From the NCBI GenBank assembly GCA_014871385.1, contig CM026429.1, forward strand, positions 5,703,892-5,767,891: a stretch of DNA of 64,000 nucleotides, in the 5' to 3' direction. Made by a program: the position numbers and the translations under genes. Shown one piece after another: positions 1,115 through 62,421 of the stretch (positions are counted from its first letter, which is position 1; each line of letters begins with the position of its first letter). The stretch comes from Ceratodon purpureus (taxonomy: Eukaryota > Streptophyta > Bryopsida > Pseudoditrichales > Ditrichaceae). The notes under the pieces were generated by a model that was given only the letters and a program-made list of their open reading frames with translations, was not told the origin of the DNA and ran no database searches.

Positions 1115-4100
1115 ATGTATCAAATGGGTCCACTGTTTATGCTTCCACCGGCATATTACCGGTTGTATCGGCCGGTAGTGATCCCGCAGCCTTTCAGTGG
1201 ATACTCTTCTCAGGCTATCTTGAACTTTGTTCCTGATGATAAACTCGGAGATTATCAGCGAGCGTTTCTCTCAGGTGAAGATCTCCCGCCAGTGGGTAAT
1301 TTCCCGCCATCTAAAAACCCGGTTGATCTTTCAATCGCAATATGTCAAAGCTTGTCTGCTTGTGGATCGCTGAAGAAAGGACCCACTCCTGGTACCGGAC
1401 AACCAAATCAAGGTGAGATCGATGTCTTTGGAATCTGCTCAGATAAGAATCTTTCATGGTGTTCTGCTAAATTATCATTCAATTCTTCTTCTCCCATGAT
1501 TCACTTTTATGACCTTAGAGGGATTGTGGATTTCTTATGCTTTCACTAAATCCTGTCAATCTTACGAGTTGTTGTCTTCTGAGATCATGTGTCTACGTGT
1601 TGTAGAAATGGAGCCCAGTGTAAAGCCCACAATCAGTACGGCCAAGCAAGGTTATGCTCAGACTCTGTCTGGGTGGATGAAGGATTTCCCAGGCAGTTCT
1701 GAGCATAATGCAGCCCTGGAGAAAGCTATTCAAAGTGGGCCAGAGGATTTGGCACGCCAGAAGCAGGACATATGGATCAGTGACCATATTGATTTTGGTC
1801 TGAAACATGCTGGTAAGACTTCTTTCAGCGACCCACGGCATGTTTATTTGAATTGTCCTACTCCGGTGCCCCTGTTATATGCATAGTAGACCTATATCCT
1901 GTACTGTGGGCGGTTTTTTGTTGCAGGCTCGACTTGGTACAAGAGCTTGCCTCGGTATTTTCGAACTTTTATCATCGTCAACACAAGCGAGCAGGCTGTT
2001 GTGTTACTAGACGTATGCGGCGTCCCATCAGTGAACCACACCTTTGTTCTCCATGATGACTATGGCCTGGCTCACCATTATCATTCTCAGAATCATCACA
2101 AGTCTGACCCTAAAGGAGTTATACTACCAAGGCATTCTCAGTATCAAGTTACTATTGTGAGTATCATCCAAATTTAGGCAACTTGTTTGCTTGTTCTTAG
2201 TTTTTCTGCATTGGGAAGTCAGGTATCATGTTATCTTTTGATGACTAGGTGTACACACTTAGTGTTATCATAAGCTCTTAAGGAGTGGCATTTAGTATTC
2301 AAAGTGATAAACATGGAGCAGAACATGGTTATTCCATATCATTTGTCATTGAGTCTAAGATCGAATTTTCGTGTTGACTTTTTACATATTGTGTTTTCAT
2401 GTCTTCAGGAGCTTCAGTGCAATCCAGAAGACTGCGCTTTGCATCAGCAATGGCTCATGTTCACATTTGCTGTGATAGATTGGAAAGTGAAATCTAAACT
2501 TGCAGCAGACAAAGGTTCTGTTTTCACTATCAGTCGACGGATATCAGCTCTTGTTGTGAAGCATGTGCAAGATGTACAGACCTGTCTCAGGTTGGCCTTT
2601 CTTTCTGAAGTAGTGAGTTCGTTTTGCTTTTCTATTTCATGCTTTTGATAACGGAGTGTTAGTGGTCCTTGTTTCCTACTTGCTGGATAGATAAAATGAT
2701 GTTATAAAGATGAACTTTGTGAAACACAAATCTTTATTTTGATCGATGTGCTCCATGTATCTTCGGAAAATAATTTCAAGGGAGTCAGACATGTTAAAGG
2801 GCATTTTATGCAATCGCTTTTGATAGTGAGAACATGTTTGAGGTCGACGTCATACTGGAAGCCTGCGACATGAGCACCGGTATGTGTTTGTAATAATTTT
2901 CATCGTTGTTGTGAATGCATGTGGCGCAAATAGCATTGAGGCGAAGCCCTTTTATCCACTGTCCTTACGTGCTGTCTTTGATAAAGAGCCTGCACAGTTC
3001 TCGTACGCAGATAAATCTCCATGTAAGAAATATATGGATTTTGTACGCACACAAAACTCTTCCCGTCAGATTGGACATCTTTCAGTCTGGAAGCAATCCT
3101 TTACTGACCTGGAAAAATGCATAGAAGCCAATGATCGAGATCAGGCCTCTGTTTTATCTTCAAATGTTGATAGGCAGCCAAAGAAAGATCGAATCCCACC
3201 ATTGTCGTCTCGGTGTTCTTGCTATAAGAGACAACTGGTTCAGGTCAGTGTTCATTGTTCATGGTATTGAAAGTTTATGTCCGAAAATGGATTTCATCTT
3301 AATGAACGTATCTGGTCATGGATTGTCCACTACCAAGCCCTTTTTCTTTTAGTTCCTGTTAACTTCCCCTCTTTGCACCCATACCCTTGCTTCAACAGGT
3401 TGCGGTTGTGTTAGTAAACTCTTCAAGGGTCAGCTTTGTGTAACTGTATCAGGTGCTGAACAACTTATTCACATGTGTTCTTCAGCTTGTTCGCTTGCTA
3501 GGATTAGAAGAGGCTGCAATGGAGCTTGACATCAGAGAACACGATCTTTTGAACACACTAATGGAGTGTATCGATTATCAAGAGAATCGCTTCCGGATTG
3601 AGGTGAACTCAAATCTTCACTTTGCGATGAATATTGTTGTATTCTTCAGTAAAGTGCTTCTCATTCGCATTTTGTGAATGCTTTGTGCTTCTCCAAGGAC
3701 CTCGAATTTCTGATGGTCGTGTATGTTGCCTCTTCTCCTTGACCTGTGTTAGAGCAAAGACCTAATGTATAGATTTCGTCCTAAATTGGTAGTTTTCCCT
3801 CCTTTTTTATATTACAATTGAGTAGAATCTTTTAAAGTACTGAAAATTTCTCTGGACGTAACTTTTCTACATACCTTCAGCATCAAAATGTAGCAGTTCA
3901 CCATGTTCTGGCACAAAATTTGCTTAGCTTCTGCTTGGTGATGTTGATGGGGCTTTAGATAGACTGCAACGGTTGAAGACGTTGGGTTTTTCTTTGTATA
4001 GAAGAGGACTAATGAGGATCTAGATTCCAAATATCTGATGTCTTCAATTATTTTACTGAATGTAGCTTTCAAAATAATATTGCTTTCGGGTAGACTGTCA

Positions 4101-7100
4101 AAACATTTATTCTTGGATTTCTTTGCAGGTTCCTGGTTTGCCGGAGAATCGTCCTTCCGTATTTAAGGGAGATGTGGTCTATGTTAGATGGGCAACGATG
4201 CCACAGCTAGAATGTGCAGCACTAGTGTTGGCAGTAGAAATGCAGCCTAAGCCCCAAATCATCATCAAGCTTTCTGCAGCTTTCCTTTCCCCACTTGTTT
4301 CTGAGTTCTTCGGTCAGGTTGCTATTGAAGAACGAATTCTACGTTTAAACCTCCAACGTGTCCACGTGCGCTTCATGATCGACCGATTGATTATTAAGGT
4401 AATTAAGTTTAAATTCTGATGATTCTAAAATCGGAATTAAAATCAGTCGATGACCTACTAAGGCAACAAACTATTCCACAGAATATGCATACCGCGATAC
4501 GGAGGACTGCCAGTTCATCTGCGAAGCTTCTACCATGTATGTGTACTGGTATTACAAATACTGGTCCAGATTTCGAGCTTGCGAAGCCTGATTCAGATAT
4601 CGACTCCGACGAAAAGAGGTATTTCTTGGGGATTCAGGTTAAGGTGTAATGCGTATGAATTGCATGTCAGATGTAACTTATTTATTTAATCCAATGTAGA
4701 GGGTGTTATATAGGTTTTCAAAAGACTAGTAGCTTCATTCGATATCCTATTTATGTATGGATCCTTTGGAAGAGTGAGAACATCGATGCTCTTTTGAGTG
4801 TTGAGTGTTACATGTAGTTTTCTAGCCTAGATTTGAAAAAGTGTAAGCTCATAAGAAGGGAATTTGATTGGACGTCTGTGACTTGCAGGAGCATTGCAGG
4901 AAAAAAGTTTCTGGTAATTTTCTTATTCAATTTTTTGGGTCTTTCTAAATTATTCTTTTCGCAGAGTATTGTTGTGTTTAGATCGTCTACATAAGCGTTA
5001 TTTATCGAGAATTTGTGCAGATAAATAAATGTCTCAATGAGGAGCAACAGATGGCAGTTAAAGCCGTTCTAAATATGGTTGATGGACCAGGACCTTACAT
5101 CATATTTGGTCCTCCCGGAACTGGGAAAACCGTTACCGTAAGTTTTCTTTGAAATATTTAATGGTTTAGAAAATCGCATGAGCTGTATGTATGTGGAGAA
5201 TGGCTTGAATTATTGTAATGTAAATGGGTGTCTTTTTGACATTTTCAGTCCGTCTTAGTGCCTATTTCCGGAAACAGAAACAATTTATAACACTGATGTT
5301 GTTTTCAGGTCGTTGAATGTGTGCTACAAGTGCTGAAATCTAAGAAGTCTTCCCTACTTTGTGTTTGTGCTCCGTCCAACTATGCAGCGGACATACTTTG
5401 CAGGTTCTAAGCGTGTCCTGAAGAGCCACCTCATTCCCTAGGACCTTGAAGTATCTTTTTGCACTATTTATTCCATTCTCTTTTGCAAATCAAAGATTTA
5501 CTTCATTGGATTTTTTTGATGAGTTCATTAAATGAAGCAGCAATCTACTTACTGCTTTCACTGATTGTATTCGTTCTCATATTTCAGTGGAATCTCGAAA
5601 GGAGGGATTTCACCAGGGAAAATGTGGCGGTTCAATGATCCACGCAGGACAGTGGATTCTGTAAAAGCCGACGTTATAAAGTATGCCCTGTTTCCTTTTG
5701 GTAATGCATGGTTTATGTGTTTAGTATAGTTATGTCTGAGTCACTTTCTATGTTTTTGGTTCTTCATGTTCTTGGTTTTTAAGTAATTTTAGGAAAAGTT
5801 TGAAGGAACTTGGTAGTGCTCAGCGATCTAAAATGATCTCAATAGATCATTGAGCACTTGATTTTATGGACCTTAATCCTCAGTTTATTTTAGTCGCTGT
5901 ATTTATATATCAAGATTCTGTTGATGTGGTATCAGCTTGTGCATCGTTACAAAGCTCAAACTGAGTATACGATTCCTTTGTGCCCCTGCAGATTCTGTTC
6001 TATGGCAGACGGAGTTTTTACGAATATGCATCCGAATTTTTCTACCTTGAGAGTCATTGTTTGCACTTGTGCGGCAGCAGCCATGCTTCACGAAGATCCC
6101 ACTAAATCACGTGTTAGCTTTGTCACACACATCTTTATCGATGAAGCAGGACAGGTTCATATTCTAACCCGATATAATTTTTTCAAATATGCCTTCCTTG
6201 TCAAAGTGTTTGACTGCACCGTTTTTAAAGCGTGGTACAGTCTTTTCGACTCTTAATGTATTGAATGCATTTCCTTTGAACTCTCGATTTTGCAAGATCG
6301 TTTTCAGGTTAATTGGTTTATGAAGGAAATCATGTGTCAATCTGGTGTATACTTTTGGTTCTGTGACTGCAGGCCTTAATTCCTGAAACTTTAATACCCT
6401 TGTCGCTTGCCAACCAAGATACATGCTGTGTTCTCTGTGGTGATCCAAAGCAGCTTGGACCCGTGGTAAAAAATCTTTCTTTCTCGACTTGAGGGGGTAC
6501 TTGAAATTACGCCTTATGACTTTATTGTTTGTGTAAAGTTATTCACCTAGAAATCTATTGTGACATTTTCCACTTTGCAGGTGCACTCAAAGTTGGCAGC
6601 TACAAATGGACTAGCCAAGTCGTTATTGGAGCATTTCACGCTTTCACCTCAGTACAAACTAGAGGGTCCTAATAGACCAAGCTCTGCTCGAGTTATCAAA
6701 CTTCTTCGGAATTATCGAGCCAATGGGAAGGTAAAATCGAGAGCTTATCCGCACAAAATGCTTAGTCGATCTAACCTAGGATTCTATCGCAGATTTTTTT
6801 GAGCAAGGGAAGTCACGTTGTATCGCTTATGGTCGTTTTTTGGTTTGTATTACTGCTAGAGGTTTTAGCCCAACACCTTGAAAGCCATCAAGTTTAATGT
6901 GTGATTATTGGGCCTATTTCAGCTTTTGTTCTGGACCTTAACAATTGCTTCGTGTGTTCACAGCTCTTGGAGTTACCCTCGAGGATGTTTTATGAAAATG
7001 AACTCATTGCATCTGCTGAGGTCTTTACTTTTCTCCATGACTGCAGCATTTGTTGCTTATATCTTCTGTTGTTTATCTTTCTTCTGAAAAGTCTAGTGCT

Positions 7101-9278
7101 CCATCCTTATGGGTGGGCTGACGACAGTGAGCTAGAACGACTTGCTATGATCTGATCTTGGATGTATGGGTAACGTTCGAACAAAATGTGTCTTGGTGTC
7201 TTTTCTGGTATTGTAGCCTTCGAGCACAAATGGTTTTGCCAGCAACACTTGCACCTTCTTTTTCTCCTCTGACTTTGGATAAAATGCCTGTGATTCCCTC
7301 GAAAAGGAGATTCGTAAACTAATGGACCGAAAGGCCTTTTTAGCACGTGAGAGTATTATAAGCTGGTGTACTGATTTTTGAACAGGAACAATCGGTAGCT
7401 CCTCCAGAATGGGAAGAAATGAATGATATCAACTTTCCAATGCTATTTTATGGTGTCAAGGGGCAGCAGATGCGGGAGGGCGAATCTCCGTCCTACTTCA
7501 ATGCAGGTAGCTGATACTTAAATCTCCTTAAGTGGTACCTGGTCATTGTGCTTTTGGGGTGCCGATAATCAGCTCTAGCCTATTAACTTGTCCCTTTTTT
7601 CTTTTTCTTTTCTGGGCACCTTAATCTGGGTAATCTTGGGGACTTAGAAGGAGCAGACTCTTGATTCACGGGAGCCCCTGGTGGATTTATGTCATCTAAA
7701 ATGAAAAGAATTCGTCCTTCATCTTAGTCTGGAGGGATTATGTCTTAAGTACTATACCTGATTGGCAGTTGAGATAACAAAGGTGGCGGACCTGATTACT
7801 GGGTTAATCGAAAAGACAAATGTGAGAATGGAGGATATTGGAGTTATGGCACCCTATCGCCGTCAGGTAAGAACACCAATTACTGAGCATAGCCATTTGT
7901 GGGACTTCATTGATGACCTTGTTGATCACACCAAAGTTCCACAAGCTTGAATCAAAGTGTGGACAGGATTGTTGCTGAGCTGATGTTAGTGAGTGTTAAT
8001 GGATGATGATGAAGAACTTCAGTTGCTTTTTGAGGTCGATGAATTAAGAGCCTACTACGTAACCCCTAGCCTATGGCCATATGTATAATGTTGTTAGATG
8101 TAGCACTTTGATATTGCTATGATATTTCTATGCTATATAAATTCTGACAAAGCTTATTTGTTGCGTATAGGTTCATAAGCTACGTTTAGTATTACGAGCT
8201 CGAAATATGAGGGCAATTCGAGTTGGTACTGTTGATGATTACCAGGTGCTTGCATTTCTTATTCGCCAAATTCGCTTGCTGACAAGGTTTCGAAAACTTG
8301 AAAGTTTAATATCAAGATAGTACTCCAGACGAAGTATCTCCTTGGTAGCATACGAATTGTTGGATTAATATTAGACGTGGACTTCTGTGTCGATTGATGA
8401 ACCAATTCAATCTCAAGTGAGGAACTACAGATAGCATGATGCTAGTGATACAAAAGTCTGTTGGAATAGGTTTTAGTAATCCGATCGGCACGTTTGTGGG
8501 GATCTGTGTCTTTGAACACCAGTTTGAGTCTCTTCAAAAGTTTGACGTGATTCGACGAGTAACGCTTACAACTACTCATGAGAGTTAATCTCTGGCTCTG
8601 ATTACAGGGTCAAGAAGAAAAAATCATGTTTATTTCCACAGTTCTCACAAGGCCAGAGTCCTTACGAAGAGCACAAACAGCAGGTGCTCCTGAGCAGAAC
8701 ATTGGATTCCTCAGTAATGCAAAGCGATTCAACGTTGCCATCACACGTGCTAAGGTATAGATTCAAAACCCTTCATTCTTTTGACCTTACACTAAAGTAT
8801 GCAGTTCTCAAATGCAAGCGCTAGCCATATGACTAAATTTGTTTCTCTCTATCGTGCTTATGGCATAAAACTTACAGTGCTTTGTAACATGCCATGTTGT
8901 ATTCCTGAAATAATAGTGGTCATGCTGTTGCAGGCTATGCTGGTAGTTGTAGGCCACCCAGTAATTCTCTCGGCAGATGAGAACTGGCAGGTGCTTCTGC
9001 GGCACTGCCTATCTCGAGGAGCCTATCGAGGATATGGCAGAGACAGAGTTCCTGTGTTCCTTCCCTCGTCTTCAGCTCTCAAGGACCCGTTCTGGGACTC
9101 CGACGAGCTAGATGAGGAGCTCGATGCAAGGGAGAGGAACGAGATGGATAATGCAATTGAGCGGATTGCCGAAATGTCGTTGTTGGGCTTGGGTGACGTT
9201 GAGCGGCTGTATCCAGACACTCTAGATTCGTACTATGCAGCCAACAGTGAGGATCAAGAGTGGCGTGTCGTTTTATGA
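1115..9278 (+). CDS. SDE3-like: SDE3/MOV10-like superfamily 1 RNA helicase (21 coding exons)
   Basis: ATP-dependent RNA helicase of the Upf1-like SF1 group. Plant SDE3 acts in RNA silencing, antiviral defence and transposon control, in the cytoplasm. Exons that keep phase: 1115-1412, 1606-1812, 1927-2156, 2409-2590, 2934-3243, 3486-3602, 4129-4398, 4482-4618, 4889-4913, 5021-5137, 5309-5403, 5588-5680, 5992-6154, 6373-6465, 6581-6730, 6964-7020, 7386-7506, 7769-7866, 8171-8245, 8608-8754, 8934-9278; predicted 1109 aa. Visible motifs: Walker A GPPGTGKT (622-629), Walker B DEAG (744-747), GDPKQLGPV (771-779), motif [12 protein letters not shown] (about 938-949) and motif [12 protein letters not shown] (986-995). 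The N-terminal half resembles the beta-rich part of SDE3/MOV10. The acidic tail after motif VI is probably specific to the lineage. The start at 1115 is the first good ATG in the exon-1 frame, and an upstream non-coding exon is possible. It seems intact. Family assignment is strong; single exon edges are less sure. Confidence 0.9.
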
Positions 9279-10547: not shown

Positions 10548-11639
10548 CTAAATAGGAATGGAGGTTAGCTTCTCAGGCTGCATATCGACGTGGATGTCTA
10601 AGCATGAGAGCTCCTCTTCTGGGGTGAGCTGATCCACAGGCTTCTCCACTTGATCAATCTGCTTGTATTTCTCCCCTGGCGCTGCGAGAATGCCTTCTGG
10701 CGATGGCGATGGCTCTCCAGCAAACGCATACACAATCAATCCAACGGCCACAAGAGCAAAAGCAACGAAATACAAACTGTCCACTGATTCATGAAATCCT
10801 AGCGCTCGCACCGCCACAGCCCACATGTCGGACGTCAACAAGGAGAGATTCAACATGGTAGCGCCGTTCATCTGCAACAGCCAGGGGACCATGCTGGAGA
10901 AGCCGAAACAGGAGAGTGCAAATCCAATGAATGGCGCTATGGAGCTCACACTCCAGTGGATAGCTTGAAGCTCATCCAACTCCAACGCCACGAGCTGACA
11001 TAAGCTGATGATGGCACCGAAGAAGCCAACATGGGCCAGAAACTCCACCTGATCCACTTTCTTCACCACAAACTCCTCGCTCACATTCGACACTGCATAC
11101 AGCATGGAAGCTCCCAGAACGAGTGCATCCCCGAGGAGGACGTTGCTGCCGCTGCTGGAGCGGTCCTGCGCGTGGACATCGGAGAAGATGACCATGATCA
11201 ACCCGCCCACGCAGATGGCCACCCCGACGAAGTGGTGGCTCCCGTAGCGGGTCTTGAGCACCAGCCAGGTGAGGAGCAGTACACAGGGAATGGTCCAGCA
11301 GTCGAGCAGCATCACAGAAGTGATGGACGTATACTGGTACGCCTTCACAGCGAGGTAATTAGCCTCCACATCGAAGAAGGCGAGCAAGAGATACCAATAC
11401 CACGAAATCTGAATCTCTTTCCCTCTATACAACATCACAGACCCATACACAAGACCCAGGAGAACGTAATTCAGCAGCGACTGCGTCGTGGGCGCGTCGA
11501 TCCCATTTCGCGCCAGCACTGATGAGGTCAACCCCGTGCACGTCACCAGCAAGCTCAGAGTCTGCCCGACAGCTATGGCTTTCAATCCAGTCCCATTCCC
11601 CTTCGCCTTCTCCACAATCCACCCCTTCCAATTCTCCAT
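10548..11639 (-). CDS. SLC35F1/F2/F6-like drug/metabolite-superfamily transporter
   Basis: Single-exon gene for a 363-aa polytopic membrane protein. The ATG at 11639 (MENWKGWIVEKAKG) is preferred because the longer open frame upstream begins at a TTG. About ten hydrophobic segments are visible, from around residue 20 to around residue 315, as expected for the EamA/DMT fold. The stretch DVEANYLAVKAYQYTSITSV (around residues 90-110), followed by MLLDCWTIPCVL, is the hallmark of the SLC35F (PF06027) family. The C-terminus from about 316 is hydrophilic and acidic, with a Pro-rich start, and probably faces the cytosol. The substrate of plant SLC35F members is not established, so none is claimed. 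It is convergent with the helicase gene. No damage is seen. The absence of introns contrasts with its neighbour and could mean an ancient retrocopy or simply an intronless family member. Confidence 0.88.
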   Translation of the reverse strand: MENWKGWIVEKAKGNGTGLKAIAVGQTLSLLVTCTGLTSSVLARNGIDAPTTQSLLNYVLLGLVYGSVMLYRGKEIQISWYWYLLLAFFDVEANYLAVKAYQYTSITSVMLLDCWTIPCVLLLTWLVLKTRYGSHHFVGVAICVGGLIMVIFSDVHAQDRSSSGSNVLLGDALVLGASMLYAVSNVSEEFVVKKVDQVEFLAHVGFFGAIISLCQLVALELDELQAIHWSVSSIAPFIGFALSCFGFSSMVPWLLQMNGATMLNLSLLTSDMWAVAVRALGFHESVDSLYFVAFALVAVGLIVYAFAGEPSPSPEGILAAPGEKYKQIDQVEKPVDQLTPEEELSCLDIHVDMQPEKLTSIPI

Positions 11640-14138
11640 CACAACCCAAAACTCCCGAAACTTCAAGACCCAAATCTCAAAACCCTGTCCTCAACCTCCT
11701 CATACATCACCACCATTGCTACTCCACTCTCTCCTCAATCCTCATCGAAAAACACTTGCTGAAAGCTTGCTCCCTGTTCCTAGACACCCTCATAACTTCC
11801 GCCACAGCCATCAAACTGCAACAACCTTCCAAACCCTAATTCACCACCAATCCACCAAACTTCACAAACCTCACCCCCTCCAATTCACCCAAAACCCAAA
11901 TCAGTTCCTCTTCACTTCACTCCAACAAACCACTTAACCTTCAGTAACAGAGTCTCCTTCAACCTCCAGTGGTTGAATTCCTGCCCAAGTGAGGAAAGAT
12001 GGTAGTTTCCTGAATCCTAAGATATGAAGAGAAGAATAAGAAGAACTCCAACTTTACGAATCAAAAAGCTGGTGAATTATGCGCTTGACCGAAACCAATG
12101 CAGATTGTATTCTAAGAAAGTGGCCCACTGAGGTCAATGCAATGATGTTGTACCTTGTTACCGGCATATCCTACTGTCTTCTCTCCTTACATCCTAATCC
12201 TACACTCTCATGACATATCCTAAAAACTCCATCCCATGAAGCATTTGTACCCATCTGGGGGTGTTATCCAAGTTTGTTTTGAGAAAAGGGAGGCAAGGCA
12301 AGCATCTGGTGGGATGATGGAAAGGGCAAAGAGGGGGGTGGATGATGGAGTTGTGGGTTGGGCACGGCACTGCACAAAAGAGAGCAGGACAAGGCAGTTG
12401 AGGGATCAACGATGAGGTCGCGTGAAACGCCTTCTTTCCTTCTTTGGTTCTGCTACAGAGCATCATGGCATTGACCTCGCTGGGGCGCTTTCTGCTCTCG
12501 GTCTTGGGTTCTGCGACTCACGGTCTTGGGTTCTGCGTCTCACGGTCTTTGGTTCTGCGTCTCACGATCGGTGCGTTCCAGGAGGACAATATCCACACGT
12601 GAGTCTCCTGTGTCTGTCATGGATTTTCTAAACCGTACGTCGATAGCAGATTTATGCATGGATAATTATAGAAAAAGAAGACAAGTTTTCTTTTTGGAAA
12701 TTTCAAGCATGGAAAAATGAAAGTATGTGAAATTATTTTATGTGACATTTGTCTACTGTTTTTTATCCACTTAAGGATATTTTTAGTGATAAAAATGGCA
12801 ACTGAAAAAATAAAATTTTGGAAGATATTTGTTTAAAAGTAAATGAATCTATTATCCATGTATGATATATTATATTAGTTTGTAAATTTATTGTTTTTCT
12901 GTGCAGTAGAGTTGACAAGTGCAGTTGTTAATATATAATGGTGAATTTCTCGTATTCTAGGAGCATTAAAAATTACTGTTGATTTTATGTATATATATTT
13001 CAATGCTATAATGCTTCATCCAATTGATCGAAGCACATGGTTCAATGAATCAATGAAAAATATTAGCAACTTGGATCATCCACCCAAAACATGATGCACT
13101 TACAAATAACTCTGTTGTAAATTTCGGAAAAAAAATAAAAAATCACTTGTAATAAACCAATGATGAACAGTGTGCGACAACTGGATAAAAAGCGTTGCAT
13201 TTGCATAAGAAAATCTCATTTACTCTTGCACTGAAAAAATCAACCAGTGACGTCGTCATAACACATCAACAATTGAGTACTTTGCAAACATACGGTAGTA
13301 TATTATTTAGAACCTACAGTTGAACAACTAGCTGCAGTGCTCAGAGAGAGCAAGCCAATTCCTGTAGCTAAACAGAGCATTTGGCGTGCAAAATCTGAGT
13401 CGGTGGTTCATAACCTTGCTATATCAGAATTAAGTTCCCACCTTGCTATATCAGAATTAACTGATCTATATCTTACTCTGACTTAAATTGTCTGATAGGT
13501 AGTCTGCGCAAAGTGAAGCTAGAGTGTGGGTATGACAAGGACTGATCGATAGGATATTAAGTATAAATTTTATACTTAACGTACGCATCTCCTCCATACT
13601 TGAGATATATCTAGAAACTGGATGGGTCTTACATACAACACACTTCGTGCTGTACTGCAATGCAGTATAACCAAAATGCGCAAAATGCAATGCAGCTCTA
13701 GAGGATGATTCAACCTGTACAATGAAAGCAAGCCTCTCTTCTTGCAGGTACATATTTTCTCACCAAGTTCAACTCTTAATGAAACCTTGGGTGAGGTTTT
13801 GGGCATATTCACAACACTCGATCTCGCTTCACTGAATCATCGCCTACCCTGAAAATTCAATAGTCGTCCTCCGACTCATCCGTCCAGTTCGGTCCAGTGT
13901 AGGATTCCTACAATTACCACAAATTGTAGTCCAGCGCATGCAAGTACGCGACTGGTTAGCAGCAGCAGTATAGTAATCTAACTCATCTACTTGCAATACA
14001 CCTTCAGAAAAACGAGTGCAGCTCTGTTTGATTCTCGCTTGGAAATTGGAAGTCTAAGAGCATGCACAGCAAATATACAGAGAGTTTAAAAAACTGACGT
14101 ACGGAACCCAGACGCATAATAAAGAATTTCAAGAGGAA
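11640..14138. other. Spacer; upstream region of the transporter and downstream region of the WWE gene
   Basis: Positions 11640-11950 are C-rich and T-poor on the plus strand, fitting a 5' leader of the minus-strand transporter. The rest is mostly AT-rich without a convincing gene. Short repeats include the 22-bp units listed separately and two copies of ccttgctatatcagaattaa near 13420 and 13441. Confidence 0.4.
12499..12564. repeat. Three tandem 22-bp units
   Basis: Three consecutive 22-bp units, each starting cggtcttgggttctgcg or a one-base variant, fill this stretch exactly. The small plus-strand open frame across it is probably fortuitous. Confidence 0.8.
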
Positions 14139-21027: not shown

Positions 21028-21285
21028 CACTAGTAGGAACTGAGGCCAACCAGGGTTGTCTATTCGGACGGACATGGGCAAAATTTCCGGACATAGACGG
21101 ACGGACGGACGGACGGACCGGTCGGTCCCCGGACATAATCGGACATTGAGGGGAGGAGGAAAATTACTAAGTTAGTTTTTTTTTTTTACAACTTACCTAT
21201 AGGGGAAACATATTGATGACATGGACAACGAACGATGACGGGGAATTCCACATATGCAAAGGGGTGCGCGAGCGAGTTCAAAGGG

Positions 21286-21842
21286 GGCGCGAGCTTCTGA
21301 GAAGGGGGCCAGAGCTTTTGGGAGGGGGGGCGAGAGCTTTTGGGAGGGGGGGCGAGAGCTTCTTAGAGGGGCGCGAGCTTCTTTGGTGGGGGGGGGGGGG
21401 GGCGCGAGCTTCTAGGGGGGGGGCGCGAGCTTCTAGGGGGGGCGCGAGCTTCTAGGGGGGGGGGGCGCGAGCTTCTAGGGGGGGGCGCGAGCTTCTAGGG
21501 GGGGGGGGGCGCGAGCTTCTAGGGGGGCGCGAGCTTCTAAGGGGGGGGGGCGCGAGCTTCTAGGGGGGGGGGGCGCGAGCTTCTAGGGGGGGGCGCGAGC
21601 TTCTAGGGAGGGGGCGCGAGCTTCTTGGGGGGGGGGGCAAGTGCTTCTATGAGGGGGGGGGGGGGCAAGTGCTTCTAGGAGGGGGGGAGGCAAGTGCTTC
21701 TAGAGGGGGGGGGGGCGCGAGCTTCTGAGGGGGGGGGGGGGGGGGGGGGGGCGCAAGCTTCTTGGAGGGGGGCGCGAGCTTCTAAGGGGGGCTAGAGCTT
21801 CTGGGAGGGGGGGCCAGAGCTTCCGGGAGGGGGGGCGCGAGG
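21286..21842. repeat. G-rich minisatellite, left palindrome arm
   Basis: About twenty units of the form gcgcgagcttct followed by a run of 6-20 G, with variants such as ggcaagtgcttct and ggccagagcttct. The reverse complement of this array fills the right arm. The long G-runs could form G-quadruplexes and may be mis-sized in the assembly. Confidence 0.9.
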
Positions 21843-22418
21843 TTATGGGTTTAGGGTGATTCTGGAGAACGGGGCATACAATTGATATTTTATTTTTTTC
21901 CGTTCCATTACAAAAATAACAATAAAATTTTATTCTCCACAAGAGTACATAGCCGTCAAAAAAAGATTTATTACGATTTTGCAAACGTGTAAACAAAGCC
22001 ATATAAGCAATCAAAATGTTACATATGCAATTCACTATGGTACTACAATGTGCCTCTAAAACAACTATCCGGAGCTTTGAAGTTGTAAGGGGGACTCATC
22101 AAATCATCCACAACTCTTGCAAGTGATAGCCTCATCGTGGGGTCTTCGTTAAGCAAGCCATTCAATTTCGTTGAGAATGCAATCATTGACATTGTATCCT
22201 TGAAGAGGTATGGGCATTGTTCGTCCCTCCATATCATCTTTGCCAAATAGCCTACCGAAAATGCATTAGATTGCTCCATCCTGGAACTCTAAATTTTATA
22301 TTATAATCCCCTTTCTCTTCCAATATTAATGTTTCATCTCTTAATGTTTTGTGCATACTTCCCTCTGTAATGATTCATTTATTTATTTCTCTTCCAATCT
22401 TGTTCCACTCTATACTAT
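21838..22418. repeat. Unique-sequence part of the left arm of a large inverted repeat
   Basis: This stretch matches, in reverse complement, 22932-23512 with very few differences, giving arms of about 580 bp before the minisatellites are counted. The spacer 22419-22931 is T-rich and itself contains repeated lines (for example cctttctcttc, catttattt). Confidence 0.85.
22043..22279 (-). pseudogene. Protein-kinase C-lobe fragment, left-arm copy
   Basis: A 78-aa frame, MEQSNAFSVGYLAKMIWRDE onward, with LLNEDPTMRLSLARVVDDLM near its end. The D-P-x-x-R-x-S/T pattern followed by a helical segment is typical of subdomain XI of protein kinases, and SVGYLAKMI fits subdomain IX. It lacks all the ATP-binding and catalytic parts. 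Captured from a host kinase gene, with an identical protein in the other arm. Confidence 0.6.
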
Positions 22419-22931
22419 TTTTTATTTTTTTTCCCTTTATCTTTCTATATTAATATTTGTTTTTTTTTTAAGTCTTCCATTTATTTTTAATTGTATATTA
22501 GAGCATTGTTTCTTTCTTCCGTACTAAATTGATTAATTATTCAAATTTGTATTTCTCTTCCAACCTTCTTCCATCCCATGCTATTGATTTTATATTATCC
22601 CTTTCTCTTCTGATTTTAATGTTTGTTTTTTTGTTTTTTTTTTAATCTCTACCATTTATTTTAAATTCTATGTTAGAGCATTGTTTGTTTCTTCCGTACT
22701 AAATCAATTAGTTATCTAAATATTTTTAATTCTATGTTAATTCATTGTTTGTTTCTGGCATACTTCCTTTCATAATTATTTATTTCTCTTGCAACCTTCT
22801 TCCAGTCTATACTCTTAATTTTATATTTTTCCCTTTCTTTTTCAATATTAAAGTTCGATCTATTTTCATCTTTTCCATTTATTTTTCATTTTGTGTTTAA
22901 AAATAAATGGAAGAGATAAAAAAATAAACAA

Positions 22932-23512
22932 ATAGTATATAATGGAACAAGATTGGAAGAGAAATAAATAAATGAATCATTACAGAGGGAAGTATGCACA
23001 AAACATTAAGAGATGAAACATTAATATTGGAAGAGAAAGGGGATTATAATATAAAATTTAGAGTTCCAGGATGGAGCAATCTAATGCATTTTCGGTAGGC
23101 TATTTGGCAAAGATGATATGGAGGGACGAACAATGCCCATACCTCTTCAAGGATACAATGTCAATGATTGCATTCTCAACGAAATTGAATGGCTTGCTTA
23201 ACGAAGACCCCACGATGAGGCTATCACTTGCAAGAGTTGTGGATGATTTGATGAGTCCCCCTTACAACTTCAAAGCTCCGGATAGTTGTTTTAGAGGCAC
23301 ATTGTAGTACCATAGTGAATTGCATATGTAACATTTTGATTGCTTATATGGCTTTGTTTACACGTTTGCAAAATCGTAATAAATCTTTTTTTGACGGCTA
23401 TATACTCTTGTGGAGAATAAAATTTTATTGTTATTTTTGTAATGGAACGGAAAAAATAAAATATCAATTGTATGCCCCGTTCTCCAGAATCACCCTAAAC
23501 CCATAACCTCGC
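22932..23512. repeat. Unique-sequence part of the right arm of the large inverted repeat
   Basis: Reverse complement of 21838-22418. The two positions of any matching base add up to about 45350, showing an alignment almost free of gaps. Confidence 0.85.
23071..23307 (+). pseudogene. Protein-kinase C-lobe fragment, right-arm copy
   Basis: It encodes exactly the same 78 residues as the left-arm copy, in opposite orientation. The identity of the two arms implies a recent inverted duplication or gene conversion between them. Confidence 0.6.
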
Positions 23513-24275
23513 GCCCCCCCTCCCGGAAGCTCTGGCCCCCCCTCCCAGAAGCTCTAGCCCCCCTTAGAAGCTCGCGCCCCCCTCCAAGAAGCTTGCGCCC
23601 CCCCCCCCCCCCTCAGAAGCTCGCGCCCCCCCCCCCTCCTTAGAAGCTCGCGCCCCCCCCCCCTCCTTAGAAGCTCGCGCCCCCCCCCCTCTAGAAGCAC
23701 TTGCCTCCCCCCCTCCTAGAAGCACTTGCCCCCCCCCCCCCCCTCATAGAAGCACTTGCCCCCCCTCGTAGAAGCACTTGCCCCCCCCTCCTAAAAGCAC
23801 TTGCCCCCCTCCCCTCCTAGAAGCACTTGCCCCCGCCCCTCCCCCTCAGAAGCTCGCGCCCCCCCCCCTAAGAAGCTCGCGCCCCCCCCCCCCTCCCCCC
23901 TCAGAAGCTCGCGCCCCCCCCTAAGAAGCTCGCGCCCCCCCCCCTCCCCCCCCTCAGAAGCTCGCGCCCCCCCCTAGAAGCTCGCGCCCCCCCCCCCCTA
24001 GAAGCTCGCGCCCCCCCCCTTAGAAGCTCGCGCCCCCCTAGAAGCTCGCGCCCCCCCCTTAGAAGCTCGCGCCCCCCCTAGAAGCTCGCGCCCCCCCCTA
24101 GAAGCTCGCGCCCCCCCCCCCCTAGAAGCTCGCGCCCCCCCCCCTAGAAGCTCGCGCCCCCCCCCCCCCTCAGAAGCTTGCGCCCCCCCCTCCCCTAGAA
24201 GCTTGCGCCCCCCCCCCTAGAAGCTCGCGCCCCCCCCCCCCCCCCCTCAGAAGCTCGCGCCCCCCCCCCCCCCAA
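23510..24275. repeat. C-rich minisatellite, right palindrome arm
   Basis: About thirty units of agaagctcgcg followed by a C-run, with agaagcacttgcc variants between about 23693 and 23835. It is roughly 200 bp longer than its partner array in the left arm, so the arrays have changed length since they arose. Confidence 0.9.
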
Positions 24276-24542
24276 GATGTTGGCGCCCCCCTCCCCCAAG
24301 GCGTTGGTGCCCTTCCTCTTAGCCATGTCATCCCCCGTGTCAATTCTATATGTGGAATATTTGGTGACATGTCAGACGCGTGGCATCCTAGGTGGCCAAG
24401 GTAACTCCCATTTCACCATTTGGGTGGTCAACCGTAAGTCCTGGTCAAACGGACCTCCCCTGACCCCTAACGGACGGACGAGCGGACCGGACGGACGGAC
24501 CGGTCCTTTTGTCCCATGAACAACCCTGAGGCCAACTACACC

Positions 24543-41488: not shown

Positions 41489-41986
41489 AGTTATATAGAA
41501 TTTTCTTTTAAAGAAAATCTAAAGGTCTAACAACTAAGTTTTACTAATTGATAGTGGGTAGTTATAAGAACCAAGAGCAGGAGGCTTCTAAAACAAGTAT
41601 ATAAAATAGGGATTGGACCATTGATAAGCCACTAACTCATGCATAAAATAGTGTCTTCTACAATTGTAAAAAGTAATGCGCTATGTCAATTGCATAGGTA
41701 TTGATGCTCTTACCTTAATTAATATTGGTTTCATAACTACTACTAAAGTTGGAAACTTTGACATCTTGATAACTTTAAGAATGAAAACTTTTTATAGTAA
41801 TTTTTTTAAAAGATTAAAAACAAAATTATAGTAGTTACTCATATAAAAATTAATAAAAGTAATAAAGGGGTATAATAATCAGGCCTTTAGGGTTTTGACG
41901 CCTAAAAGACTACATACTAGTTGCAGGAAGAGTGTCGGAAATGCAGGTAAGAGAAAAGTAGTAAAGAATTGAATTTTGGATTTTAA
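41489..41986. other. AT-rich spacer
   Basis: No gene or repeat seen before the TTAA element. Confidence 0.4.
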
Positions 41987-42857
41987 CCCCTAAAGGACAA
42001 TCTGCCACATTTGGGCTTTTTTGGAATTTGGGCATGTACCTGTTAATGCAATTTATATCATGATTTTCTGAAATTTTTATTGAAGGTGGGCCGTTCGGAG
42101 ATCTTTGTGTGGGTATTTTTATTTTTCAATTCCGACATCGGGATCAAAAGTTATGAAGGTTTAAGTGTCAAACGCTGCTCGTTGAGCAGCTGCTGAATTT
42201 TTCTAAGCCACTGTGAATGCAGCAAATTCTGCCCAAAACTGCCCAAAACTGCCCAAAACTGCCCAAAACTGCCAAAATCTGCCCAAAGACGAAACTTTGA
42301 AATTCCACCAAAAATTGAGATTTTGATATTTTTCAAAAATAAAAATTTCTATGTATAGAGAAGGCAGTAGAGCATGTTCCCACCGTTTGGATTTTCAATC
42401 CATAATTTTTTCATATGCTATTTTTATTGTCAAAAAACGGCCTTTGTTTGTGAATTTCAGTATACCCCCTGGCGGAAAATGATTTTTTTGGCAACTTTCC
42501 ACAACTTTTTTGAATATAATTTTCTAGGTACAATTAGCTAACTCAGTTTTCTTTGACGTGCATCAAAACCACCAAAATCCATAATGCAAAAAAATGGTTT
42601 TTTGGGCCTTCAAAACTCTGTTGTCCCCTTTTTTTGCAGGGGAAAAAAACTTGTTTTTCTACTTTGAACGTTATGATCTTGCAATTGGTGAAGAATGAGT
42701 GTGTGATATTTGGTGGACATGTAGACATAGAAGTTAGCTACAAGATCTTACGGTTAGATGTTCTAAAAAAGACCCCAAGTTTGCAAAATCCACCTTGCTT
42801 TGAAGAGGGGCTGTTTTGAGGCAGTTTTGATGAAAAATACCCTCAGAACTTTAGGGG
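41987..42857. mobile_element. TTAA-flanked non-autonomous DNA transposon, copy B
   Basis: Starts CCCCTAAAGGACAATC and ends with ctttagggg, with TTAA on both sides (41983-41986, 42858-42861). It is 871 bp, the same length as copy D and closely similar to it in reverse complement. It carries a tandem run of a 10-bp unit gcccaaaact (about 42232-42290). Confidence 0.78.
42232..42290. repeat. 10-bp tandem repeat inside TTAA element B
   Basis: Four exact gcccaaaact units followed by one or two decayed units. Copy D shows a shorter and more decayed version of this run. Confidence 0.8.
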
Positions 42858-42861
42858 TTAA

Positions 42862-45279
42862 TGAGCATAGTTGAAAAATCATAACATGCATGATATATCT
42901 TCTAGAAAAATAAAAACTCAATTTGGAATTGTGAAACCATCAAACACATTTAACACATATGCATATATACGATAAAAATATATTACAATTATTTGAGAAA
43001 AACACAAAACACTAAGTTACATATATACAACATGTTTTATGTGGTATTTCTTATGTTTAAATCCTTTTTATTATTTGTTTTTTGAAATTCTAAACTTATA
43101 ACTTTATGTAATCCTATCTACCAATGTACCAATTCCTTCCACTTTTTTAGCTTAAATCTTACTATAAATCTTGATAGATTATAGTTTGATTTTACCAAGA
43201 TTTAATCAACACTTGTTTAAATAAAATAAACTTACATAAACAATTTACATTTAATATAAGGTTAAATATCATAAATAGTATCACTAATTTAACATAGAGA
43301 ATTTCAAGAATGAATCATCCAAGAACTGTGGCTTGTCTAGAACTACTCCAGGCGTTAAAGAATTAACCATTCCGAGCTGTAACTTATATTGCCTTTAAGA
43401 GGTGATAAAAAACTCTATCTTCAGTAGCCGTAAAGGGCTCTGTCAGTGTATTTTATTCTCCTTCCAATTAAACGAAGTTGGATTTGTGCCAAAAAAAAGG
43501 AAAAAGGAAAAGGAAAAAGGAAAGATAAAAAGAATGAGCACCTGCTGAAATTGCAGTCACGAGGTTCTCAACTCCTCACACACTGCACTTTAGCACTTGA
43601 TTGCAGATGGCCGAGTGGACTTTTTATATTAAAAAATGTGAGAAAGATACAATAAACCTACTGGGCTTCTAAGCCAGAAGTACACATGCTCTATAATATG
43701 ACTGCAGACTTGTAGTATCAATCCATGACCACAACCTACAGCCTTCCAGCAAATGCAATGTGTCTACTCAGCAGTAAGGCGGTCATCGTGAACTTCATTT
43801 ACTCTGTTTAAAAAACTTAATTTATTATCAACATCGACAGAAAAGAAATATTTTATTCTAATGCTTGTCTTAAAATAATTTTTAGAAACTCAAAATCAGC
43901 CCATCATACAAGTGCTCTAATAGGCACAAATCTAATACAGAAAGACGACAAATGAATAACTATGCGTGGCATTGCTCAGAAGGGCTTCCCAGTTTGCTTG
44001 CCTAATCCTGCACCTTGATGGAACTCCCTCTCGGAGACTTGTGGCCTGAAGCTCCATCGTACAGAACCACGTCTGTCATTCACATGCGAAGTCCGTGGCC
44101 AGTTCGAGAGTGCACGAGGATTCCGTGGTCTGTAGACTGTGTCTTCTTGCTTGGGAGCTAGCGTTTCTAGATGTGCTGCTAAATGAGGACAATGATGTGT
44201 TCGGGAGAATGGCGGAGTTGGACCTGCAGAATGGTGGTTCTAATATATAGTGTGTTCTCGAGTCTGAGTTTATGTGCTCTCGGAAATAGTGTAACTTGCA
44301 AATGGTGGACTTGGAAGTTGGGACGACCATTCTATCGAATACAGCTTCCGACAATAGGAATTGGATTCATTAATTCAATCAGCACATGTTGGCGTTATGA
44401 TATGTGGATGAGGGAATGATCTCATCGGCACCGCAGCAAAGGAGTGATCATCGGAAACTTGCACAAGTTGATCATGGGGCACACCTAGCCTAAGAAAATT
44501 GGAACCTGTCAAGGGATGGACTCGAACATGACGACCGTTAGGAGATCTAAGCATTTTCTTCTCCATCCACGAGGTTATTTATATAAAAACGCAGAGGGGA
44601 TAACTCGGGTGTGGCTTGGTTACAGTCTTTAGAATTTTAGATTCATATGTTATGGTCTCTCGAGAGTCCAGACTGCAAGGAAGTGCAGAGGACGTAATCA
44701 AAAGATGAATAGAAAGAAAATATCGCTGTCGGACAATATGGATGGTCCACGAAATAATCATGTGACTGAATCAGTAATTCAACCAAATAGAGTGTCGGAC
44801 AGGAGAAAATCATGTCATCACAGCGTCGTCGAGGATTGCGACCAGAAGCCCACATCCACTGATAGCAAAAGTGGAGCCTTTCTCAACGACAAGTTCCTCA
44901 TGTGCAGAAGCATTCTCATTATTATAATAAGCACAATGACCAGCAGCGAGGTGGCGAGGAAGCGCTGCCTCTCCAGCATGCGACTCCTCAGGCTTACTTG
45001 ACACGTCCTTGCTCCAAAGTTGAGCACCTAGTATATAAAGATATCCAAGCTGCAGAGAATCCATCGATGGATCACAATACCATTGAGGCAAGTGTGGAAG
45101 TGATCAGCGATTGTGCAGAGTCATACGTACAGAATGAGACTTGTTTTGTGCATACATCAGTCATCTTGAGAGCCTAGAGCCACTTGAGTGAGATAATTGC
45201 AACGGCTATAGAGACTTTGGCAAGTCATATTGAGAAGTTTTGCTCGACTAAGAGGAAGCCAAGAGAGGACATACCCGAC
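42862..45279. other. AT-rich spacer and upstream region of the coiled-coil gene
   Basis: An A/G-rich tract (ggaaaaaggaaaag type) lies at about 43488-43530. No convincing gene. Part of 44700-45279 may be 5' untranslated sequence of the following gene; a stop in its frame at about 45175 excludes coding extension in that exon. Confidence 0.4.
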
Positions 45280-48200
45280 ATGTCAAGCTTGACCATGGAT
45301 TCTCGCAAGGATTCCCGGCGTGACCATTCCGCTAGCCATGAGGAGGTGCTGAACTTCGCCAGGCAGCATTTGGAGGCTGGAGCTAAGGAGGTGCAGGATA
45401 TGGCTGGAGGCAAGGGGAAGGCGTCCGTCATCTCTGCCCATTGGATCATTCCTGCTGATGCCGGCAAGAAGGCTGAGACGGTGAGCTGCAGTATTTCTCA
45501 TGTCAATCTTTAAAAATGTGCTGTGTTTTGTATAGACCTACAGGCTCTACAAATATTTCTTGTCATTGTCGTGCACATGTTGAATGCGTGAGTGTTAATA
45601 ATTGGTCTACAAAGAAGTCACTGTTACTGTATGATCAGTTCAACAAGAGTGTGATAATGCATCTGATACCAGCATTTATGTCGTCATTTGAACTCTTGCA
45701 ATGCTATGAAAGATGTTGCTGATGTAGCTGAGTACCAGGGTGTTGTAACCTGGCTACAGTGGCCGAATTAAGGTCTGTGCTATGGTTAAGAGAACATGGG
45801 CGTGCACCTGATAGGATGTTAATTAGCTGATGAGATCTGCAATAAGAACTGGTGGCCGGTTAGACGTTTGAATCGCAATATTATGTGACTATATTTCTGA
45901 AAGTGGGCATGTTTTCTATCATGAATAGACGATTAAGAACCTGGAGTTTGAGCTGACAAGCTTTAAGAAGCAGCTCCAAGAGTGTGAATCGGCTCTTCAG
46001 ATGGCCAACAAGGAGACCGAGAAGGCCAATCAAGTAGCTCGCAGTTCTAAAACCAGAGTTGTGGAACTCGAATCCCGTGTTACTCAGATAGAGACTGAGC
46101 TCAAATCTGCTCTCGACAAAGCTGCCGGGTTCGAGAGTGAACTCCGAAGTTACCGTGCCAAATATTCCGAAGTGCAGTCGACGTTGAGAGAGAAGGACGC
46201 TGTTATCGGAGGAAAGGAATCAAAGATCAGCAGTCTGACAAAGAATGTAAGACAATTCCACTCTTTCCAGAAATTCCTCCACCATCACCATGTATCTTAA
46301 CCAAATATGTACATTATCCTCCAACTAGTTTTTTATTCTTCTTTCAATTTTCATTTGAATCCTCAGATGTCGTGTACATGCCCTACTCGTCTGTTCTGTC
46401 GTACCTGATTAATTAAGGCATATGAAATTGAAATTTTCTTATTAAAAATGATGCTTCTCTGTTCTTCAGGTGGGGAAATTCAAATCTCGGAATATTTCCA
46501 ATGAGGAAAGGGCTTCACAGTTAGACTCTCAAACTGTAGAGCTGTCCCAGAAGATCAAATATATGGAATCTGAGCTCTCACAGGGCGGCATGGCGAAAGA
46601 GAAAGTTGAGTCGTTCCTGTCCAAATACAAGGAGGATTTGGAACAGGCTACCTCCCGGGCCAGCTATTTCGAAGGCCATTTCAAGCAAGAGCAGGAGAGA
46701 TCTGCTTCTCTTGAGTCAGAGCTGCAGACGATGCGGAAGAGAGTTGATTCTGAGTTAGGACAGTGGGTATATGTTGAAGAGAAGAGAGATGCTTCTCAAA
46801 CTGTAGAACTGTCCAAGAAAATCAAACACATGGAGTCTGAGCTCTCACAGGTCGGCGTGGCGAAGGAGAAAGTTGAGTCGTTCCTGTCCAAATACAAGGA
46901 GGATTTGGAACAGGCTACCTCCCGGGCCAGCTATTTGGAAGGTCATCTCAAGCATGAGCAGGAGAGATCTGCTTCTCTTGAGTCGGAGCTGCAGACGATG
47001 CGGAAGAGAGTTGATTCTGCTCAGTCAGGACAGAAGGTATATGTTGAAGAGAAGAGAGATGCTTCTCAAACTGTAGAGCTGTCCAAGAAGATCAGACACA
47101 TGGAGTCCGAGCTCTCACAGGTCGGCGTGGCGAAGGAGAAAGTTGAGTCGTTTGTGTCCAAATACAAGGAGGATCTGGAACAGGCTACCTCCCGAGCCAG
47201 CTATTTCGAAGGCCATTTCAAGCAAGAGCAGGAGAGATCTGCTTCCCTTGAGTCGGAGCTGCAGACGATGCGGAAGAGAGTTGATTCTGCTCAGTCAGGA
47301 CAGAAGGTATATGTTGAAGAGAAGAGAGACGCCTCTCAAACTGTAGAGCTGTCCAAGAAGATCAAACACATGGAGTCCGAGCTCTCACAGGTCGGCGTGG
47401 CGAATGAGAAAGTTGAGTCGTTCCTGTCCAAATACAAGGAGGATTTGGAACAGGCTACCTCCCGGGCCAGCTATTTGGAAGGTCATCTCAAGCATGAGCA
47501 GGAGAGATCTGCCTCTCTTGAGTCGGAGCTGCTGACGATGCGGAAGAGAGTTGATTCTGAGTCAGGACAGAAGGTCTCTGTCGAAGAGAAGAGAGACGCT
47601 TCTCAAACTGTCGAGCTGTCCAAGAAAATCAAACACATGGAGTCTGAGCTCTCACAGGTCGGCGTGGCGAAGGAGAAAGTTGAGTCGTTCCTGTCCAAAT
47701 ACAAGGAGGATCTGGAACAGGCTACCTCCCGGGCCAGCTATTTGGAAGGTCATCTCAAGCATGAGCAGGAGAGATCTGCCTCTCTTGAGTCGGAGCTGCT
47801 GACGATGCGGAAGAGAGTTGATTCTGAGTCAGGACAGAAGGTCTCTGTCGAAGAGAAGAGAGACGCTTCTCAAACTGTCGAGCTGTCCAAGAAAATCAAA
47901 CACATGGAGTCTGAGCTCTCACAGGTCGGCGTGGCGAAGGAGAAAGTTGAGTCGTTCCTGTCCAAATACAAGGAGGATCTGGAACAGGCTACCTCCCGGG
48001 CCAGCTATTTGGAAGGTCATCTCAAGCATGAGCAGGAGAGATCTGCCTCTCTTGAGTCGGAGCTGCTGACGATGCGGAAGAGAGGTGATTCTGCTCAGTC
48101 AGGACAGAAGGTATACGTTGAAGAGAAGAGAGATGCTTCTCAAACTGTAGAGCTGTCCAAGAAGATCAAACACATGGAGTCTGAGCTCTCACAGGTCGGC

Positions 48201-59811: not shown

Positions 59812-61024
59812 AATTTATCATTTCGATTTTCGCAACAGATCCATTGGAAAGTTATCAAGGACCTTTTGCTCGTTCTTTCGCTTCCTTATCACCATTGGGT
59901 TCTCTATCACTGGGGTATCGACGCAATGCACCGTTGGTTGAAAGCACTTCCAAGCTACCAGGGACGCACTCTCGTCAGTGCATTGTGGGTCAGAGCCGAG
60001 AAGTGACTTTTCTTGAATGCTCCTGGTACCTCGTTGATACCTTGAAAACCCGGTAATTAATTAGCACGAGTGGTTGATCCAGCTTGGTACCTTCTGGTGA
60101 AACAGATTGCAAACGTCCATATTTGCCCACAAGTTGCAGCTTGTACAGATGTGGAGAGGATCAGCCAAACTGGTGTACATTATTATCAGACGGTCATTCA
60201 GGCAATCAATTTTTCATATCTTTCATTGAAAACATCAGGTATCAAAAGAAAGATCTTAGCTGTATTTATGCTGCCGGAACTGAGTGAGGTCTGGATATTC
60301 CAGTGCAGTTTCCTCTTTGGTCGTCTGTGGACAAGATGGTGACATCCAACAAGGCAGCAGGCAACAAGATGCTTGAACTTCAATCTTGACCAATTCTTCA
60401 GATATTCGAGGTCATGAACAAGTTGCAGATTAATTTGTTTGAATTGTCGTAAGAGGTTGGGACAATCTTTAATACAGATAACCTTTCTCAGCACAGCATG
60501 ACTCGGAGGAAGCTGATGTTTCTCTCGCATGACTGGCAACATTGTTTGAACTAAAAGCGATGCTCTACAGCTAATCTGTTGCAATGAAGGAAATCATGTA
60601 GAGTGAGGCCACTTGTTGATCTGTTTGAATTGATCTCATGTGTTGAGCTCATTAGGGTTCATTTTGAAATCTCCAAGTTAAGAGTGCTGGTAGACTCTTG
60701 AATTATCCCCTAAATTTTGGAATATGCATTTGAAGCAAGTAAAATCTAGTGTATTTTGGTTGTGTTTGAACTAATACCTTATTCAGCTACATTTCAATTG
60801 ATGGAAAAAGATGTATGTTTTAATAAGACATATAAATTAGGTGTTATTTAGGGTTCCATGTAGAATTGACTTGAAGTAGGATAGATGAATGGATGAATAG
60901 GTTTGACGTATTTGTTAAATAATAAGTATAGTAATAGGTTTTCAATATTCTCTTAGAATATAGAATGTGAATATAAAATAATTATTAGAATGGCAATATT
61001 ACACTCTCCTTCAAAAGTTAAGTA
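59812..61024. other. Downstream spacer of the F-box gene
   Basis: The 3' region of the F-box gene and AT-rich spacer. Small open frames at 59844-60342 do not look coding. Confidence 0.4.
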
Positions 61025-61028
61025 TTAA

Positions 61029-61899: not shown

Positions 61900-62421
61900 T
61901 TAATAAAAGTGTATGGATTCGTTATTATATCCTCAAAATCATACAAACTAATTCTAAATTGTTTTGTTTCAATTTCAAACAATGTAAATCATTGGTACAT
62001 TCTTTTATTATCTTTTTAAATATATACATAATAATACTAATTTCACTTCAACATTAACAATCTAAAACGTAAGTCTTCCCTCATATAACCAATGACTTTC
62101 CCTTATTTTCAACTTTCAAAGCAATAGAAGTCTTTCACTATCTATAGGTGTTTTGCAAAACTTTCATCCATATTTTATTCCTTCACAATCAAAGAAGACA
62201 CTTTTTAAACAAGACACTAAAGGATACTTAGACAAAGTCAGAACCACCAAAAAAGATTTGTAGGCAATTAGATGCTCAATTCTCAATAATCTAAGTTTAA
62301 ATCCCAATCCGATGTCCCTAAAATGTCTTCACTCCTACTCTGAAATAGACCAACTTCAAAGCAATTTGCTTTTAGCTCAGTCCCCTTCATTAATCAACAC
62401 ATGTATGATGACATCAGTGAC

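Follow-up and report, generated by a model that had tools for sequence, protein, structure and literature searches.

Several groups of described transposons are close to the element treated here. In maize, the transposon silencer Mu killer consists of an inverted duplication that covers part of mudrA, a gene of MuDR itself; it is one locus, in which the transposase gene is duplicated and two copies of one element end are present (PMC3440606). Accessory enzyme genes beside the transposase are established by fungal DNA transposons, since hAT7 elements, which make 7-bp duplications, carry TET/JBP genes and elements of another group, IS3EU, carry an alpha-kinase gene, so that hAT cargo and kinase cargo are each documented (PMC12730594). 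The VANDAL transposons of Arabidopsis provide the case of a plant DNA transposon with an accessory protein gene, encoding the VANC anti-silencing proteins (PMC5735166, PMC10398659). In this study, we analyzed a 64,000-nucleotide stretch of the moss Ceratodon purpureus (contig CM026429.1, positions 5,703,892 to 5,767,891; hereafter the window) and characterized in it a 3,478-bp element at 21051-24528, which is very probably a non-autonomous palindromic derivative of a hAT family with transposase, protein kinase and RING-finger genes. This reading follows from the shared ends, the 8-bp duplications, an unoccupied site, the multiple copies with a common centre, and the homology to parts of a complete 12,068-bp element elsewhere in the genome.

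The window element has the termini CAGGGTTGT and ACAACCCTG, and the 8-bp target site duplication AGGCCAAC flanks it immediately on both sides (21043..21050 and 24529..24536). Its left end (21051..21282, + strand) is 99.1% identical over 218 columns to the left end of the complete element on contig C1 and 99.5% identical to locus L070, and for its right end (24298..24528, + strand) the identity to the C1 counterpart is 93.1% over 232 columns. An 8-bp duplication is a feature of the hAT superfamily that the window element and most of its two-ended relatives show, and short terminal inverted repeats are common to the window element and the C1 element, which encodes a hAT transposase. The interior consists of two 595-bp inverted arms, with the kinase-tail sense on the - strand in the left one (21837..22431) and on the + strand in the right one (22918..23512). 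In the best gapped alignment they agree at 99.16% over 596 columns (3 mismatches, 2 gap positions), and an ungapped scan found a 162-nt inverted pair of 100% identity (21737-21898 and 23451-23612) that extends into minisatellite sequence. Both arms hold the same frame of 81 codons from stop to stop, encoding an identical 78-amino-acid C-terminal kinase fragment (22046..22279 on the - strand, with the stop codon to 22043; 23071..23304 on the + strand, with the stop codon to 23307). Between the arms lies an AT-rich, internally repeated centre (22432..22917), which is distantly similar, at ∼70%, to the RING-kinase intergenic region of the C1 element. Outside them, a G-rich minisatellite with 21-24-bp units (21283..21849, + strand) is mirrored by a C-rich one (23515..24297, + strand), and ∼230 bp of non-minisatellite sequence lies outside each. 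The earlier note on this DNA, made from the letters alone, had described a hAT-type element with a palindromic interior, a doubled kinase fragment and mirrored outer minisatellites, and these measurements bear that description out.

An unoccupied site corresponding to this insertion is present at C3:2944500-2944722, where 223 query bases match 223 genome bases at 99% without a gap across the junction (positions 178-400 of the 400-base joined-flank query) and the target sequence occurs once. The start of the match, 23 bases to the left of the junction, is shared by several weaker matches, so the window element probably sits near the edge of another repeat. Foldback elements carry inverted repeats of tandem repeats that reach the termini, and the window element resembles them in having long inverted repeats composed partly of tandem repeats; it differs from them in that its ends, its duplication length and its relatives are those of the hAT family.

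The source of the kinase sequence is found in the three-gene family. By itself the 78-amino-acid fragment matched no Pfam family, and it was identified as kinase because its full-length relative, a 535-amino-acid frame in the C1 element, matches Pkinase (1.2e-10). That element (C1:4255773-4267840) is complete, with CATGCAGC flanking both sides, and reads in order left end, minisatellite, RING gene (reverse), minisatellite, AT-rich repeat region, minisatellite, kinase gene (forward), C-rich minisatellite, transposase gene (forward), minisatellite and right end. Its 1109-amino-acid transposase frame matches DUF659 (7.5e-33) and Dimer_Tnp_hAT (9.5e-7) above the curated cut-offs. The 725-amino-acid frame upstream on the opposite strand is homologous, at 95% over 287 residues, to the RING-finger frame of L070, which matches zf-RING_2 (7.9e-7). 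On the + strand of the C1 element, the minisatellites (positions 251-500, 3251-3750, 5001-5250, 7251-7750 and 11501-12000) are rich in G where they lie in the left half and rich in C where they lie in the right half, and the complete element is therefore roughly mirror-symmetric in composition too.

The three genes are abundant across the genome, and all figures for their copy number and linkage are lower bounds drawn from the matches listed. At least 65 transposase copies were listed with a 679-residue query (1389 candidates), all 65 at 99-100% identity and seven with one stop; at least 82 kinase copies (1423 candidates), with 97-100% protein identity to the C1 copy (L069) and 80 of the 82 without a stop; and at least 135 RING copies with a 288-residue query (1131 candidates), at 92-100% and some with stops. 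In the set of 82 kinases, a listed transposase follows downstream on the same strand in 55 and a listed RING frame lies upstream on the opposite strand in 75; both are present in 54, with the transposase 2.3-2.9 kb away. Conversely, a kinase is listed beside 55 of the 65 transposases and a RING frame beside 61. The full-length kinase is under moderate constraint in the three copies compared, with a ratio of nonsynonymous to synonymous substitution rates (dN/dS) of 0.42 for the C1-C12 comparison and 0.62 for C1-C6, each over 535 codons. Pairs of three-gene copies lying ∼37 kb apart were observed on C1 (4257884-4267000 and 4294888-4303985) and on C6 (5781516 and 5818329); their frames score equally (transposase, kinase and RING on C1, kinase and RING on C6), which suggests segmental duplications.

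Palindromic relatives of the window element are likewise numerous. The first arm had at least 43 listed genome matches (369 candidates, 40 scored), the 78-amino-acid fragment had at least 150 (762 candidates), and a 240-base query from the left end had 40 listed, 30 spanning all 240 bases and 10 spanning 1-217 at 100%. When the 115 listed fragment matches at ≥83% were analyzed for pairing, 46 head-to-head pairs emerged, the window's own and 45 further ones. The spacing within pairs ranges from 570 to 1879 and falls at 1020-1040 in 30 of them. In 20 elements both ends were located, the window element included, and 17 of these have an exact 8-bp duplication; in another, by our own reading, the duplication is exact once a one-base trimming of the hit is allowed for. 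The search of the genome for the full kinase gene and for sibling elements, which the earlier note had recommended, gave long kinase relatives, frames of ∼535 amino acids listed in at least 82 copies, and the 46 listed palindromic pairs.

Several copies deserve individual mention. A 2,124-bp element at C6:36272830-36274953 (L028, L064) contains one listed kinase fragment and has an exact 8-bp duplication. The ends at C2:25336206-25344408, also with an exact duplication, enclose 8.2 kb and probably contain an insertion. A palindromic copy at C3:776376-779234 (left end in L033) interrupts a three-gene copy within its kinase gene: the 400 bases adjoining the left end of the insertion are 99% identical to the kinase coding region of the C1 element (6251-6650), and a transposase match lies nearby on the same strand (C3:773128-775164). 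Derivatives therefore also enter and break autonomous-type copies.

The centre points to a common ancestry of these palindromes. It is present in 63 of 74 loci (L001-L074, of which several can belong to one element) at 87.7-100%, and in full length with both arm junctions in 17 loci, which by our count represent 12 elements. The palindrome consequently is likely to have arisen once, and repeated independent origin is not needed for most copies. Six of the 46 listed pairs have a wider spacing of 1255-1426 and may be later, larger palindromes. Two of the six, on C10 at 3.28 Mb and on C5 at 1.55 Mb, were checked through the match to the centre from both sides, and in both the palindrome seems to be larger and to take in part of the centre. 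The C10 copy (C10:3282179-3285428; L021, L022) has two left-type ends and, in our reading of its flanks, no 8-bp duplication.

The window element is a mosaic, with a left end 99% like that of the modern element and arms at only ∼83%. Its arms match the C1 kinase tail at 82.6% over 380 bp, and the kinase tail of a decayed relative, L075 (C6:78813900-78817100), which adjoins a hAT transposase frame, at 92.4% over 276 bp; because the L075 tail is the closer of the two, the arms trace back to a different, probably older, lineage within this hAT family. We propose that an internal deletion joined the AT-rich RING-kinase intergenic region to the kinase tail of that lineage. Locus L076, which holds one arm, centre sequence and a truncated right end, fits in content a deletion derivative without the inverted duplication. 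The joined block would then have been duplicated in inverted orientation between the family ends, probably once, and the resulting palindromic element could have spread, moved in trans by the transposase of the family. Afterwards, recombination between the long arms would have inverted the centre and kept the two arms of a copy similar, and some copies seem to have acquired a second-order, larger palindrome. The most likely function of the element is none beyond that of a mobile parasite of the autonomous-type family.

Recombination between the arms would explain both their similarity and the two centre orientations, and it is suggested by the occurrence of both orientations together with arms that are more alike within than between elements. 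In the 20 elements, the mean difference between the arms of one element is 0.43%, against 1.75% between elements (55 arms, three duplicate readings having been removed), and none of 5000 random re-pairings of the 20 arm pairs gave a value as low as that observed. Between elements, arms of the same side differ by 0.0170 and arms of opposite sides by 0.0171. Of 29 left-end loci, 14 have the centre in one orientation with respect to the ends, 14 have it in the opposite orientation, and one has no match; the set comprises 29 of 30 such loci, as L031 is largely N and was left out, and the two sides of the C10 copy (L021 and L022) are both among the first 14. The two ends agree on the orientation in 18 of 19 elements, the exception being the copy at C5 1.55 Mb. 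The copies at C2 0.59 Mb and C3 23.27 Mb have opposite centres, and in any pair of their arms 0 or 1 of 581 bases differ. The clearest cases of a partner arm being the nearest arm (differences within the element and to the nearest other arm) are on C13 (2 and 10), C7 (2 and 9) and C4 (1 and 5).

Some observations weigh against the derivation proposed here. Twenty-three of the 115 listed fragment matches are unpaired, and these, together with the single-arm C6 element and its exact duplication, suggest that the single-arm form moved too and that palindromy is not required for spread. Among the 20 two-ended elements, one lacks a duplication (1 of 8 bases) and one agrees at 7 of 8 bases. No intact parent closely matches the arms, the nearest long kinase frames having ∼76% protein identity to the fragment. 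The putative mobilization by the family transposase is read only from the ends. Finally, just 8 of the 20 elements have a partner arm that is closer than any arm of another element, with 3 ties, because many copies are near-identical.

Other explanations of the structure fare considerably worse. The earlier note had assumed a donor gene of the host, and a Pack-type hAT element with a captured piece of an ordinary host kinase gene would be in keeping with the inference that the family kinase must ultimately derive from some cellular kinase. Such capture is nevertheless very improbable: the long matching kinase frames are multi-copy and uninterrupted over 526 residues, 54 of the 82 listed lie beside a listed hAT transposase and RING frame, and L075, the closest relative of the arms found to retain more of the kinase, adjoins a hAT transposase frame. 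A host donor gene was rejected on these grounds; the fragment is indeed kinase, and the kinase belongs to the transposon family. One candidate donor, a 227-amino-acid frame at C5:14618944 matching at 96%, turned out to lie in a further palindromic copy. Unsplit long reads are known to yield artefactual palindromes, and the earlier note had named an assembly artefact as an outcome that would overturn its proposal. This now appears hardly credible in view of the 46 listed pairs at different sites, the 17 exact duplications in 20 two-ended elements, the window arms that differ at 3 mismatches and 2 gap positions, the two differing ends and the unoccupied C3 site. It is equally hard to believe that selection maintains the 78-amino-acid frame in both arms as a short functional peptide, even though 53 of the 55 arms examined have it open. 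Catalytic kinase motifs are lacking in the fragment, and no purifying selection was detectable among the 55 arms, whose 33 variants comprise 9 synonymous, 24 nonsynonymous and 0 stop changes, where 26%, 71% and 3% are expected under neutrality (transitions 4 to 1).

A further explanation is that the palindrome acts as a silencer resembling Mu killer. Read-through transcription would then produce a long hairpin RNA, and small RNAs derived from it would silence the autonomous-type kinase gene and so restrain the transposon. The anatomy suits it: the element contains an inverted duplication of the transposon's own gene, as does Mu killer with part of mudrA (PMC3440606), and the high copy number raises the odds of read-through transcription at some copies. 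A strong hairpin is predicted, with -1090.5 kcal/mol over 1675 nt where five mononucleotide shuffles give -311.7 to -344.3; any palindrome would be expected to give one. Together with the 46 listed pairs, this difference speaks against a chance arrangement. Sequence identity was compared through the 549 21-mers of the arm in three full-length kinase copies. Exact matches occur in two of them, 9 in L077 (C12) and 2 in L078 (C6), but 0 of 549 occur in the C1 copy L069, to which all 82 listed kinase matches are 97-100% identical in protein; the relic L075 contains 45, and L076 contains 105. The autonomous-type family is also abundant and near-identical (65 of 65 listed transposases at 99-100%) and does not look restrained. 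Since the kinase tails face outward from the centre, divergent transcription from there would give two sense RNAs and no duplex, and only read-through could therefore provide one. The read-through hairpin model is disputed in maize as well, where silencing plants made short antisense transcripts (PMC3440606). We accordingly consider present-day silencing unlikely. The likeness to Mu killer that the earlier note had drawn holds for the anatomy, more closely than could be seen from the letters, and the silencing of the donor kinase has little support in view of the 0, 2 and 9 matching 21-mers and the outward tails.

The comparison with Mu killer can be made more precisely. Both are internally deleted DNA transposon derivatives in which part of one of the transposon's genes is duplicated in inverted orientation (PMC3440606 for the maize locus), and in the window element this duplication is recognized by its 82.6% and 92.4% matches to C1 and L075. 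In contrast to Mu killer, the palindromic family is multi-copy and the duplicated gene is the accessory kinase gene; the left and right ends of the window copy are distinct and not two copies of the same end, and a sequence match able to target the autonomous element was not found in the three full-length kinase copies compared. The C10 copy with its two left-type ends is formally nearer than the window copy to the like ends of Mu killer. It is conceivable, although rather unlikely, that the three-gene hAT is a parasite whose kinase and RING-type ligase act either on host components such as silencing factors or on its own transposase, and that it is itself parasitized by palindromes whose hairpin RNA once targeted, or still targets, the kinase of a now largely decayed lineage. 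If true, this would be an RNA conflict of transposon versus transposon with the relics of the losing lineage still visible.

On its sequence features, the window element would be placed among the non-autonomous members of a hAT family, and the three-gene family among the accessory-gene DNA transposons. VANDAL elements are Mutator-like elements (MULEs), not hAT elements, and VANC is neither a kinase nor a RING protein. Compared with hAT7 and IS3EU, the moss elements are hAT transposons with 8-bp duplications that carry both a Pkinase-type kinase and a RING protein. DNA transposons with accessory genes are known; what stands out here is a plant hAT with kinase and RING genes together, and no hAT with this combination was found in the accessible literature, most subscription papers and Repbase reports being outside the search. 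Among solved structures, the kinase had only three weak sequence matches, two of them to PRP4 kinase over 59 residues, and among viral contigs two stretches fit a search pattern for kinase relatives, neither a relative. The abundant near-identical three-gene copies across the large contigs of one genome offer a direct test of the use of the cargo to the transposon. The palindromic copies, with both orientations in one genome, form a natural series for counting inversion and arm-to-arm conversion. The results also correct a misreading, as a gene fragment borne by a transposon need not be a captured host gene.

Elsewhere in the window, a tandem array with a period of ∼267-270 bp occupies 46527-49171, its shifted copies being 92-95% alike. 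An 880-bp inverted repeat pair at 41983-42862 and 61024-61903 is 91% alike with ∼18 kb between its members, and direct repeats of 502 and 414 columns, 89-91% alike, lie at 49497-50426 and 51219-52199.

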